Source of the DNA: a virus
IMG/VR virus record: IMGVR_UViG_3300042883_000526
Span: 1 to 22,378 of that record
Direction: 5' to 3' (one strand)
DNA length: 22,378 nucleotides
The position numbers and the translations under genes were made by a program. Below, one piece after another: positions 16,673 to 20,424 of the stretch. A model generated the notes under the pieces. That model was not told the origin of the DNA. It made no database searches and worked only from the letters and a program-made list of their open reading frames with translations. Numbering within the stretch: position 1 is the first letter of the stretch; the number at the start of each line of letters is the position of its first letter.

Positions 16673-16748
16673 TGGAGCCTTCGACAGGACTCGAACCTGT
16701 GACCGCCTGTTTACAAAACAGGTGCTCTACCAACTGAGCTAAGAAGGC
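16673..16748 (-). tRNA. tRNA-Thr (anticodon UGU)
   Basis: On the minus strand a complete 76-base cloverleaf starts GCCTTCT at 16748. It has the D-arm AGCTCAGTTGGTAGAGC, anticodon stem CCTGT/ACAGG around TTTGTAA (anticodon TGT), T-arm ACAGG-TTCGAGT-CCTGT, and acceptor CGAAGGC with discriminator T and an encoded CCA (16675-16673). Only the seventh acceptor pair (T-C) is mismatched. It decodes ACA (and by wobble ACG). It lies between the terminase small gene and the accessory cluster, in the same direction, so it may be cut out of the polycistronic message. Confidence 0.93.
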
Positions 16749-16908: not shown

Positions 16909-17481
16909 CTACGCAACATCGATGATATCCTCCTGCTCTGTAACAACTTGTAATGGTTTTACGCTGATCATGCGGGAAATGGCGTCCGCGTCGACCTTCA
17001 GCCTGTGCTCGACCACCTGGACCGTGGTTTCACCTAGCATCGCCGATTGTTTATCGAGGATTATCCCCAAAGCAACGGAAATTCCCGCCAGTAAACTTGG
17101 TTTAACATCCGCACCCTCAAGAGCATCCAGACCTTGCTCGATGGTTGAGGCGGCCTTGTTGGCGATGCGTTGGAGGTTGGCAGCCATGTGGCCGCGGAAG
17201 AGTGCCGGCTCGCGTTCGAGTAGCTGATCCCGGACGATCTGGACGGTAGACTTGCTTGAGCTAGTATCGTAAGCGATGCGAGCGATTGGAATCTGCTTAC
17301 GGATGAGATCCTCGATAAGCGTACGCTTTTCCGTACTGATTTGCGTTGCGGTATACTTGCCCAGGTCTGATCCACGCGCCAGCTTCTGGGTGACGGTGGT
17401 CAGCTCAGGTGGCGGAGTTGCGGTAACTTGTGCCGTGTTATCCAATACTTTGCTTATACCAGAGCGTAGTTTTTGGCGCAA
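16909..17481 (-). CDS. probable terminase small subunit / HTH protein (190 aa)
   Basis: This 190-residue frame has an HTH around KRTLIEDLIRKQIPIARIAY followed by DTSSSKSTVQIVRDQLLERE. Then come long helices (RGHMAANLQRIANKAASTIE, QGLDALEGADVKPSLLAGIS, VALGIILDKQSAMLGETTVQ). An N-terminal HTH plus a helical oligomerisation part with a 'GIILDKQ...LGE' segment is usual in terminase small subunits, which bind the packaging start site. It is the only good TerS candidate, but it is 2 kb from terL with the tRNA and six genes in between. No in-frame ATG precedes the HTH. The first start is TTG 17481, a second TTG follows at codon 13, and no Shine-Dalgarno is visible, so the start is uncertain. The gene is divergent to the plus-strand island, 47 bases away. 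Confidence 0.62.
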   Translation of the reverse strand: MRQKLRSGISKVLDNTAQVTATPPPELTTVTQKLARGSDLGKYTATQISTEKRTLIEDLIRKQIPIARIAYDTSSSKSTVQIVRDQLLEREPALFRGHMAANLQRIANKAASTIEQGLDALEGADVKPSLLAGISVALGIILDKQSAMLGETTVQVVEHRLKVDADAISRMISVKPLQVVTEQEDIIDVA

Positions 17482-17528
17482 GTGGTTTGATATTGACGTG
17501 AGCTGTCAGGCGCAATTTAGTGGCTGCG
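17482..17528. promoter_or_regulatory. divergent intergenic region, overlapping candidate promoters
   Basis: This 47-base gap is all that separates two divergent genes. Plus strand: TTGACG (17493-17498), 17 bases, TTTAGT (17516-17521). Minus strand: TTGCGC (17515-17510), 17 bases, TATCAA (17492-17487). Both would give almost leaderless messages. Matches are partial, and the assignment rests on geometry. Confidence 0.3.
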
Positions 17529-17705
17529 ATGAAACACATGATTCGAGAGTTGATAGTGCTGGGAATCGCGGTGGCCTGCGCCGTCGCTGTTGGTTTTATA
17601 TTTGGTTTGAAACATATGCAGAAGGAGGCGGTTGAGGTGGGCCACGCTCACTGGGTTCTGACTGAAAATCTGCGCGTGCAATTTGTGTGGGGGGCGAAGC
17701 CATGA
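17529..17705 (+). CDS. small membrane protein 1 of plus-strand island (58 aa)
   Basis: From ATG 17529 (a GTG at 17520 would add three residues) this gives 58 residues: MKHMIRELIVLGIAVACAVA, then VGFIFGLKHMQKEAV and a soluble tail HWVLTENLRVQFVWGAKP. Residues about 8-27 are one transmembrane helix with charged residues on both sides. By the positive-inside rule the orientation is ambiguous. Its stop overlaps the next gene (ATGA). Size and topology resemble small phage inner-membrane peptides (lysis accessory, superinfection exclusion), but no family is recognised. Confidence 0.6.
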   Translation: MKHMIRELIVLGIAVACAVAVGFIFGLKHMQKEAVEVGHAHWVLTENLRVQFVWGAKP

Positions 17706-17929
17706 GTACTATCATCGACGGCGGCGGACCAGCTTTTCCAACTCTTTTTATTGAACCAAAATACGGATCGGGTTACAAGGGCATGACCCTGCGCGACTAT
17801 TTTGCTGGGCAGGCCATAATTGGAATTGCTCCAAAAGACCCTATCGGAGCAAGTACTTGGATAGGATACGCGGCTTATGAAATAGCAGACGCAATGATCG
17901 TGGAACGCAACAGGGAGGCCCGCAAATGA
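17702..17929 (+). CDS. conserved small phage protein, GMTLRDYFA type (75 aa)
   Basis: This 75-residue protein reads STIIDGGGPAFPTLFIEPKY, GSGYKGMTLRDYFAGQAIIG, then a C-terminal helix AAYEIADAMIVERNREARK. 'DGGpAFP ... GMTLRDYFAgqAl ... AYxiADAMlxxRe' is one of the most widespread small-protein patterns in phages and prophages of proteobacteria and others. Its function is unknown. A G-rich stretch (GGGGGG at 17689-17694) seven bases before the ATG may serve as ribosome binding site. It lies between two membrane-peptide genes, coupled to both by ATGA. Confidence 0.82.
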   Translation: MSTIIDGGGPAFPTLFIEPKYGSGYKGMTLRDYFAGQAIIGIAPKDPIGASTWIGYAAYEIADAMIVERNREARK

Positions 17930-18048
17930 TCGCGCTCGCTGCCATAATTTTAGCTGGTGCCATCATCGTTGGCGTGGCATGGGCCGCGCTGATCGTCATC
18001 TGGTACGGTAAACAGATCGATGACGACATCAACTCAGATGGCACCTAG
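17926..18048 (+). CDS. small membrane protein 2 of plus-strand island (40 aa)
   Basis: This 40-residue peptide is nearly all transmembrane: MIALAAIILAGAIIVGVAWA then ALIVIWYGKQIDDDINSDGT. The long hydrophobic N-terminus (about residues 1-27) is followed by an acidic tail. A good Shine-Dalgarno, GGGAGG (17913-17918, seven bases before ATG 17926), lies inside the preceding gene, and the start overlaps its stop (ATGA). The TAG at 18046-18048 is followed 50 bases later by a terminator, closing the three-gene unit. Function unknown. It could be a holin-like or exclusion peptide. Confidence 0.6.
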   Translation: MIALAAIILAGAIIVGVAWAALIVIWYGKQIDDDINSDGT

Positions 18049-18098
18049 AACGCCATCCTAAGCGATTTGCGGGGTTTTGACCTTCCGCGAGTACCACC

Positions 18099-18129
18099 AG
18101 CCCAATCTTCAACGGTTGGGCTTTCTTTT
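18099..18129 (+). terminator. rho-independent terminator of plus-strand island
   Basis: AGCCCAA (18099-18105) and TTGGGCT (18116-18122) form a 7-base stem around a 10-base loop, followed by TTTCTTTT (18122-18129). There is no T tract in the opposite direction, so it ends plus-strand transcription only. Confidence 0.8.
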
Positions 18130-18164
18130 GCACGCAAACATCTGTGCCTTTTTATTTGTTTGTA

Positions 18165-18221
18165 GGTGACCCCGTCGCCTAAAAGCGAGAGGGGGAACCT
18201 TACCCTCTCCTTTAGGAGAGG
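18165..18221. promoter_or_regulatory. structured non-coding region with alternative hairpins
   Basis: The 220-base convergent gap (18049-18268) has no convincing gene. Besides the terminator it contains, on the plus strand, GGTGAC/GTCGCC (18165-18179, 6 pairs, one wobble). It also has a two-part stem CCTAAA+GAGAGGG (18178-18183, 18187-18193) with CCCTCTC+TTTAGG (18203-18209, 18211-18216). A competing stem is CCTCTCC/GGAGAGG (18204-18210 with 18215-18221, loop TTTA). The last two exclude each other. No T tract follows in either direction. Confidence 0.45.
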
Positions 18222-18250
18222 CAGCCCCCACACATAGCCCCCTAAATCAC

Positions 18251-18272
18251 CCTATCGTCATCCTATCGTCAT
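18251..18272. repeat. tandem 11-base repeat at gene end
   Basis: CCTATCGTCAT occurs twice in direct succession (18251-18261, 18262-18272). The second copy contains the stop of the winged-helix gene (minus-strand TGA at 18271-18269). It contributes nothing to the protein and looks like a slippage duplication. Confidence 0.8.
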
Positions 18273-18637
18273 CCTTTTTTCTGGTTAACGTGACTTACCA
18301 AGGCATTGAAGTTCTCAACTATAATGTCATTAGCGGCTTGCAGACTCCTGCACTTCGCTAAGTTTTCCTTGCAGATCTTGCGCAATTCCGCGATCTCGGA
18401 AGCCACCCTAGCCCTAAATTGGCCGTCATCTTCGGTTGGAATGTACTCGGCACCGGACCACTTCCGGGTGCGGCTGTTGAACACCAGGTGGCCCTTGTTT
18501 CTGAGGTAGTGAAAGGTGCGTGCGGTCTGCTCGATGGACTGGCCGGTGACCTCCGCGATGTGTGCTAATACTTCGGATCGAATGAACACGCGGTCGTGTC
18601 TAAGCGGTGGCATGAACCTAAATTTGTCGGACTTCAT
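18269..18637 (-). CDS. winged-helix-like protein after primase-helicase (122 aa)
   Basis: This 122-residue protein starts at ATG 18637, overlapping the primase-helicase stop (ATGA). Residues about 18-62 (IRSEVLAHIAEVTGQSIEQT, ARTFHYLRNKGHLVFNSRTR, KWSGAEY) look like a winged helix with a two-strand wing; the C-terminal half (ASEIAELRKICKENLAKCRS) is a coiled coil. A DNA-binding dimer that assists replication or regulates the block is a reasonable inference. I do not recognise a named family. The last replication-block gene before the convergent region; no terminator with a T tract on its strand is evident. Confidence 0.6.
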   Translation of the reverse strand: MKSDKFRFMPPLRHDRVFIRSEVLAHIAEVTGQSIEQTARTFHYLRNKGHLVFNSRTRKWSGAEYIPTEDDGQFRARVASEIAELRKICKENLAKCRSLQAANDIIVENFNALVSHVNQKKG

Positions 18638-20424
18638 TTGATTGGCCTCGCGGTGAACATTGCAGGCGGTGCGTACTCCCAGCAGATGCCGGTCGTGCTG
18701 TGCCTAAGCCGAGCCACGCTGGTCGGGTTGCCCATCGCGTCGATCATGCCGCTGCGCTTGCCGCGCTTGGTGAGCGTGAATGAGTAGACCTGCTCGTCTG
18801 ACTCGCGCTGGAGGACTGCGACCTCGCGTGACCAGTTCGTGAGGTCCGCTGAACCTGCGCCGGCGTAGGCCAAATCAGACGTGGTCCCCTTGGCCTGCTC
18901 ACCCTTGTGCGGCTTCGGCATATGGTGCAGCCAGACCCAGCAGCAGCCGGTCTCCTGTAGCACCGGATTGAGCTGGTTGCGCAGGAAGCTGCTCATAAAA
19001 CTCTGCTCCGAAATGTCGTCGCCGGCGTAGCTCAACAGCGGGTCCACGATGATCACGTCTGCGCGGTGCTTGGTGATGATTGATCGTGCCAGCTTGATGA
19101 ACTCCGCGCCGGTCTTAACGGTCTCGTCATAGAAGCGCACATTCTCGTCCAACGTGACTATATCTGCGCCGCCCAGCCTCATCCCGGCAATCACGCCCTT
19201 GAGCGCCTCTGCCATATCTCCCATATCGTTCTCGGCCTGCACCACCGCAACGCGCAAAGGTCTGATCGGCTTGATGCCAAAGAATGGTTTGCCCAGCGCG
19301 ATGGTCAGACCTAGCTGCATGGCGAAGGAGGACTTGCCGACACCGGACTGTCCGACGATTGTCATCGATCCTCCACGGCAGAGCCAGCGATTGCCCAGCA
19401 CGTTGTTCGGGTCGTTGTCGGTATTGTATGCGATGAGGTCGCTGGGCTTAGTGGGTTCCGCAAGTTCGTTCTGGTCGCGCCAGTCAATCCACTCCTGCCA
19501 CGTTGGTTGGCCAATGTTAAGTGCGATCAGGGTCTGCTCGGCGGCGCCGCGCATGATGCCGGGCAGGCGCGAGAATCGTGATGGATTCTTATTTTTTGGG
19601 TCGGGTGCAACGTCTGCGAGGTAGTCGTACACTTGGTCACGGCGTTGCTCCCACTCGCCGGCGTCGGTGGCGTCAACGCGCACCCAGGCGTGTACACTCT
19701 TGCCACCGGAGTCGATGACCGCGGAGACCGGAAGCTGGCAGCGTGTGATGATGTCGATCTGCTCGGGCTTGGGTCTGGAATCAAATTCAATTAGGACGTG
19801 ACGGTACGCGCTGACGTTTTTGTCCGATCCGGTAAACAGGTCGGGCTTGGTGGGGTTTATGCGTATCCATGCGCCTTGGTTCGTGCCTGTCCACATCTGG
19901 TCAGGGAAGAATGTGAGCCAGCGCGACAGTGGCATGAACGTGCCGTTGCTGGCTGGGTTGTACTTATCGTGCTCCAGATCGTAGGTCGCGTCGTTCGTGA
20001 TGCAGATCCAGTCATCCGGTGAGAAGATTGTGGTCAGGAACTTCTTGGTCGCGTCGAAGCCGCTCTCCTTGGCCGTCGAAATGGTGACACCCTGACACCG
20101 GTTGGCCACGAACTTGCCGCTCGGTGACACGCAACTCTTGATGCTGGACGCCGGCGTGAAGTGTGACGCCATCAGGTGACCGCGGGGCTTATCGTGCGAT
20201 GTCTTCTCGGCCTGGTCTACCTTGTGGATGAGTTCGCGCTCAGACCACGGTGGAGTGCAGCGCAGATTAAATTCTGTGAGCAGCGTGAGTGCGTCTGATC
20301 TGGGCAGAGAAAAACCGTGGACCAGTGCGGTTGCCACGGTGAAGGTTGCGTTATGTCCGCTGGAGCCAGAGATGGCAGGCGGACATGATGCCAGATATAG
20401 TCTGGCGCGTTCGAGTGTTGTCAT
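18634..20424 (-). CDS. primase / RecA-type replicative helicase fusion (596 aa)
   Basis: Domains in order: residues 1-75 a small helical module (SGSSGHNATFTVATALVHGF, ... CTPPWSERELIHKVDQA) that often precedes phage primase-helicases. Then comes an archaeo-eukaryotic primase-like part with LIEFDS (acidic E213, D215), SGGKSVHAWVRVDA (239-252, His 245) and NPSRFSRLPG (280-289). A RecA-like ATPase follows, with Walker A GQSGVGKS (358-365), Walker B VIIVDP (457-462) and WLHHMPKP. Such proteins prime and unwind DNA at the phage origin (RepA/DnaB-like role). The primase family is identified from motif pattern. ATG 20424 has no Shine-Dalgarno. The following winged-helix gene overlaps its stop by four bases. 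All ATPase motifs appear intact. Confidence 0.85.
   Translation of the reverse strand: MTTLERARLYLASCPPAISGSSGHNATFTVATALVHGFSLPRSDALTLLTEFNLRCTPPWSERELIHKVDQAEKTSHDKPRGHLMASHFTPASSIKSCVSPSGKFVANRCQGVTISTAKESGFDATKKFLTTIFSPDDWICITNDATYDLEHDKYNPASNGTFMPLSRWLTFFPDQMWTGTNQGAWIRINPTKPDLFTGSDKNVSAYRHVLIEFDSRPKPEQIDIITRCQLPVSAVIDSGGKSVHAWVRVDATDAGEWEQRRDQVYDYLADVAPDPKNKNPSRFSRLPGIMRGAAEQTLIALNIGQPTWQEWIDWRDQNELAEPTKPSDLIAYNTDNDPNNVLGNRWLCRGGSMTIVGQSGVGKSSFAMQLGLTIALGKPFFGIKPIRPLRVAVVQAENDMGDMAEALKGVIAGMRLGGADIVTLDENVRFYDETVKTGAEFIKLARSIITKHRADVIIVDPLLSYAGDDISEQSFMSSFLRNQLNPVLQETGCCWVWLHHMPKPHKGEQAKGTTSDLAYAGAGSADLTNWSREVAVLQRESDEQVYSFTLTKRGKRSGMIDAMGNPTSVARLRHSTTGICWEYAPPAMFTARPIK

Follow-up and report, generated by a model that had tools for sequence, protein, structure and literature searches.

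An inverted island of small genes in an uncultured phage is probably a cassette array joined by a near-constant coding seam

Phages carry and shuffle many small genes of unknown function, and to our knowledge what sets the units of this exchange is mostly unclear. The question is raised by a 22,378-base IMG/VR virus record, analysed over its whole length and referred to here as the window, in which three small genes are encoded on the plus strand while all other credible genes lie on the minus strand. What kind of unit is this island, and how are its genes put together?

Genes were called using a home-made codon model trained on the phage family of the window, and the calls bore out the three ATGA-coupled plus-strand genes proposed in the first-pass annotation (A58, B75 and C40, Table 1); the leftover plus-strand ORFs are low-scoring or fall inside large minus-strand genes. 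Pooled pN/pS values among relatives of 0.26 for A, 0.51 for B (few changes) and 0.14 for C show all three to be under purifying selection and, together with the recurrence of the gene order in relatives, identify the island ORFs as genes rather than chance reading frames. A58 and C40 each have a single strongly hydrophobic span, the highest mean hydropathy over 19 residues being 2.7 and 2.9, in agreement with the earlier description of two single-span membrane peptides, and B75 is predicted to form a two-helix hairpin with moderate confidence (pLDDT 72). The strong terminator assigned to the end of the island was likewise recovered (-14.4 kcal/mol, z -3.3) and is conserved in close relatives. 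The 47-base divergent gap assigned to its other end had to be revised, as it assumes that D190 starts at TTG 17481. Both the gene caller and comparison with relatives point to TTG 17445 as the most likely start, giving a gap of about 83 bases. A promoter scan found no consensus promoter near this gap and called no promoter-like site inside the island, while a TTGACG-17-TTTAGT match picked out by eye near the gap would start transcription at or past the ATG.

Table 1 Features of the plus-strand island and its flanks, in window positions
Feature	Position	Strand	Description
D190	16909..17481	-	Flanking HTH protein; likely start TTG 17445
Divergent non-coding gap, island to TerS-like gene	17446..17528	.	
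A58	17529..17705	+	58 aa; N-terminal membrane span, then tail EAVxxGHAxW....FxW; first cassette
Seam A/B	17688..17705	+	TGGGGGGCGAAGCC + ATGA
B75	17702..17929	+	75 aa; DGGPAFP...GMTLRDYFA family, PHROG 2201/37111; swappable middle cassette
Seam B/C	17912..17929	+	AGGGAGGCCCGCAA + ATGA; Shine-Dalgarno GGGAGG at 17913-17918
C40	17926..18048	+	40 aa; single-span peptide, acidic tail IDDDINSD; constant last island gene
Intrinsic terminator of island	18099..18132	+	Hairpin 18099-18122 plus T-run
Conserved non-coding element between E122 and island	18150..18268	-	
E122	18269..18637	-	Flanking gene; end of replication module
Primase/helicase	18634..20424	-	Flanks site; basis of family tree

Upstream in the reading direction of the minus strand lie the primase/helicase gene and E122, and on the other side of the island are D190, a tRNA-Thr gene, the large terminase, an SU10-type portal, the major head protein and a tail fibre. 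D190 appears to be small-terminase (TerS)-like, judging by its position and architecture. The tRNA-Thr (anticodon TGT, 16673-16748, minus strand) sits in the late module beside this TerS-like gene. The non-coding interval 18049-18268 contains a separate conserved element past the E122 stop, comprising GGATGACGATA direct repeats and GGGGGCTATGTG, which is kept in aligned family members including L090 and L015 that have no island. Its fold is no better than that of shuffled sequences (z -1.1), and it may act as a late promoter or in some other form of control. Searches of Pfam with the island genes and of Rfam with the window returned nothing except the nearby tRNA. Among cultured phages there was no DNA-level match to the whole window, and the best terminase match was to Phage C75C1 (34 % identity). 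In this phage (L168, OQ984151), the nearest cultured relative by terminase, the whole early module is divergent from the late genes, and the two modules meet just upstream of the terminase genes, at the same boundary as the island site.

Scans with the terminase, primase and gene B yielded well over a hundred related loci, among which neither the presence of the island nor its gene content is uniform. In G002 (37.5 kb) the island is the only opposite-strand block, the rest of the credible genes being on one strand. The island is missing from G006 (37.1 kb), in which E122 and D190 are only ~290 bases apart, yet this near-whole contig carries a copy of gene B in line on the main strand near the primase; gene B is 93 % identical there, in a phage whose primase is only 68 % identical. 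A primase tree resolves three island-bearing clades, each with its own type of last peptide, with island-less lines among them. Within the clade of the window A58 is constantly first and C40 constantly last while the middle is swapped, being occupied by B75 in the window, L148 and L150, by a 98-aa variant in L003, by three genes in L022 and by an unrelated 81-aa gene in L006. The clade of L009 and L084 carries roughly four to eleven other small genes at the site, among them A-family copies and genes for an HTH protein and coiled-coil-like proteins. Its last gene encodes a single-span peptide of 38-44 aa with an acidic tail, and the clade of L019 and L021 also ends in such a peptide, there 38-39 aa long. 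Comparison of the terminal membrane peptides across the three clades did not establish homology among them.

A number of individual loci deserve mention. In L021 (5742-6443) and L019 (5850-6554) a gene for a repeat-like protein of 233-234 aa lies between E122 and the opposite-strand island. A distant relative, L099, has a gene between E122 and the TerS-like gene (2236-2664) whose product has a signal-like start and by eye resembles a lysozyme or transglycosylase. At its 3′ end, the gene B copy of L150 (377-601) seems to combine the in-line (IKARE) and island (RNREAAK) forms, which may mark a crossover close to the seam described below. A bacterial genome collection yielded a single relative of gene B, located on a short Calditrichaeota MAG contig (L220, QQUM01000487) that is possibly viral. 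A literature search for MTLRDYFA found no paper.

Neighbouring island genes are joined by a near-constant start/stop sequence of ~17-20 bases, here termed the seam, in which the Shine-Dalgarno sequence lies inside the end of the upstream gene and is followed by the ATGA overlap. Comparing 12 island with 43 main-strand non-redundant ATGA junctions from the same family, Shine-Dalgarno matches were markedly better in the island (mean 4.83 vs 2.21, p 5e-4), which upholds the earlier remark on its purine-rich ribosome sites. In the island-less G006 the two seams of gene B, with 9-base and 5-base matches, rank among the strongest on the main strand. The window itself has only two seams and both are imperfect by eye, A/B matching the common seam at 15/20 bases and B/C a second seam type at 17/20.

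Seams also coincide with the limits of exchanged segments. The island of L022 equals that of L003 plus a 427-bp two-cassette block, with GGAGGCCGCCAAATGAT, a 17-19-base seam, at both ends. Across islands, blocks of homology begin at the Shine-Dalgarno sequence (-12 to -23 relative to seams) and stop shortly after the ATGA (+4 to +11). Considering islands only, 37 % of breakpoints fall at seams against the 5 % expected with shifted seam sets (maximum 17 % in 2000 shifts).

An A58 profile search, in which the seam played no part, retrieved thirteen further contigs (L188-L200). The six whose genes were inspected (L188, L189, L190, L195, L199 and L200) contain A-, B- and TPRTD-family genes in co-directional arrays whose joins are AAGGAGGCCAAGCC-RTGA or close variants, so that A-family relatives also occupy seam-linked arrays of other phages; seams were seen in the forms AAGGAGGCCAAGCC-RTGA or AAGGAGGCCAGCAA-ATGA. 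The exact 18-base seam AAGGAGGCCAAGCCRTGA was found in at least 120 IMG/VR stretches, where it joins the same gene families and is often present in 2-7 copies within a few kilobases, compared with 6 matches, all single copies, for a permuted-spacer control; a second form, GGAGGCCAGCAAATGAGC, gave 45 matches, the contigs from both searches having been picked by their seam and being mutually related. One contig, L270, carries a run of cassettes with near-identical seams. The Ala codon of the seam is GCC in 88 % of cases against a background of 30 %, and its Lys codon is AAG in 95 % against 62 %, which indicates conservation beyond Shine-Dalgarno pairing. Outside the family, arrays run in the same direction as their flanks in 12 of the 14 cases in which both flanks are known and are opposed on both sides in none, and so the inverted setting looks peculiar to the family of the window. 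Array DNA, one TPRTD protein and two A-family proteins gave no matches in cultured phages, and a 30-base seam query found 85 cultured-phage records, each at one place with weak E-values, and no multi-copy array.

The shared KEAKP-like ends of the upstream proteins might be read as a conserved C-terminal tag. This is not favoured, as these residues follow from the Shine-Dalgarno sequence and overlap of the next gene, the choice of GCC and AAG among synonymous codons is fixed, and C40, the last gene, has no such end. KEAKP-like ends are still present in 40 of 108 called run-ending genes, probably due in part to missed downstream starts.

Certain features of the seam recall systems already described. 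Integron gene cassettes are likewise one-ORF units arrayed behind a constant end, although the seam is coding and only ~18 bp long. The nearest are the lambda nin chain and the T4-type PeSLs, taken up below, and the start-associated sequences (SAS/ESAS) of Cluster K mycobacteriophages and Cluster EF Microbacterium phages, in which GGGATAGGAGCCC or GGGAAAGGACCCC usually lies 3-7 bp before the start, accompanied in about half of the Cluster K cases by paired inverted repeats upstream (ESAS) (PMC3203893, PMC7302621). Like SAS, the seam is a short, unusually conserved sequence that recurs within one genome where several genes have their Shine-Dalgarno site, precedes many small non-structural genes of unrelated families and is conserved in excess of rRNA pairing. 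Unlike SAS, it lacks the GGGATAGGAGCCC or GGGAAAGGACCCC consensus, lies inside the upstream gene, where the bases before it are coding sequence of that gene, is fused to RTGA, delimits one-ORF cassettes and is tied to breakpoints. Successive small genes also overlap by ATGA in the lambda nin region (Kroger and Hobom 1982, as summarised in PMC8022706), a chain described there as variable among lambdoid phages, but the lambda O-to-Q junctions are less alike, with a mean pairwise identity over 18 bases of 0.34; the corresponding values are 0.61 for L270, 0.41 for the islands and 0.29 for main-strand junctions. The PeSL elements of T4-type phages, mobile regulatory cassettes (Arbiol 2010, Comeau 2014, as summarised in PMC4503421), similarly place a repeated regulatory sequence between small genes and are credited in that summary with modular shuffling. 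As described there, however, they consist of an early promoter and a stem-loop between genes, whereas the seam is a translational join within one polycistronic unit, with 4-base overlaps in place of intergenic space and no promoter-like site within the island. Lacking the SAS consensus and the promoter and stem-loop of PeSLs, the island is set apart from both.

Taking together the seam, the junction statistics, the exact seam-to-seam insertion, the modular content, the purifying selection and the island-less relatives, we propose that the island is probably an inverted accessory-gene site of one-ORF cassettes that are gained, lost and exchanged at seams. An internal cassette would begin with its start codon and close at its 3′ end with an 18-20-base seam that carries the Shine-Dalgarno sequence of the next gene, RTGA both ending one gene and opening the following one. 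With this design the cassettes could stand in any order and would be translated through coupling. Recombination would take place at the seams, probably through short-homology annealing by a phage RecT and RecE-like exonuclease; RecT (PF03837) and a DUF3799 exonuclease are encoded by the relative G002, both outside the window. In the family of the window the array stands in inverted orientation, with the replication module on one side and the TerS-like gene on the other, and closes with a constant ~40-aa single-span peptide and a terminator, presumably with transcription of its own.

The recombination step has a serious rival, to which we give somewhat less than an even chance: the seam may be an SAS-like initiation signal acting in translation only, the mosaicism arising by illegitimate recombination filtered for intact genes. 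At 17-20 bp the seam is shorter than the minimal efficient pairing segment of Red-beta, 23-27 bp (PMC3945230), and selection for intact genes would by itself leave surviving breakpoints at gene edges; SAS, too, are conserved beyond Shine-Dalgarno pairing and tied to unrelated gene families. Against this, the overlap between homology blocks is on both sides the seam itself, the L022 insertion is bounded by identical 17-19-base seams, and two synonymous codons outside the Shine-Dalgarno sequence are also fixed, although these could be regulatory. If the arrays had instead grown from a few founder genes that were duplicated in tandem and diverged, the seams would be alike by descent and not as exchange sites; this would account for the three MTLRDYFA-type genes in L022, the repeated genes in L270 and the TPRTD paralogues in arrays. 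We regard it as improbable, as many neighbouring cassettes have unrelated sequences but similar seams, L270 pointing towards neighbours that are mostly not paralogues despite near-identical seams, and single genes are swapped between phages.

Other readings concern what the genes do. The likeness to a moron drawn in the first-pass annotation holds as far as the island is an accessory unit, absent from the same site in G006 and in lines of the tree, variable in content with a mobile middle gene, ending in its own terminator and encoding two single-span peptides. That A58 and C40 serve superinfection exclusion or membrane modification, with the variation reflecting an arms race, is a more doubtful proposition, though compatible with the cassette array since it addresses function. 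It would fit the strong purifying selection on C40 and on a 44-aa last gene and the membrane peptide standing last in three clades, but the searches turned up nothing significantly similar to known exclusion or defence proteins, and PADLOC gave no credible family match for known anti-phage defence. The lysis-control cassette suggested as the alternative, in which the small membrane peptides would be holin, antiholin or spanin-like, is very improbable and was rejected: an SLT-domain endolysin and a GTA_holin_3TM protein are encoded on the main strand of relatives, far from the island, the island is missing altogether from G006, and A-family copies stand among unrelated accessory cassettes. The island genes show neither adjacency nor significant homology to endolysin, holin or spanin genes, the A family coming nearest with very weak PHROG hits to Rz-like spanins (E 0.38 and 0.046).

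On the cassette-array explanation the products would most likely be host-interaction proteins, some of them membrane-bound. More tentatively, and with doubts that outweigh our confidence, the seam could mark a widespread, apparently undescribed and integrase-free cassette system of uncultured aquatic phages, in which one-ORF modules are drawn from a shared pool of host-interaction genes and a universal coding join would serve both translation and recombination. A near-constant coding seam offers an operational and searchable definition of exchange units, allows cassettes of uncultured phages to be catalogued in their hundreds and predicts a role in translation and recombination that can be tested. 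The inverted example illustrates that such an array can stand apart from the rest of a one-strand genome, and the seam could explain how small accessory genes are gained and lost in these phages.
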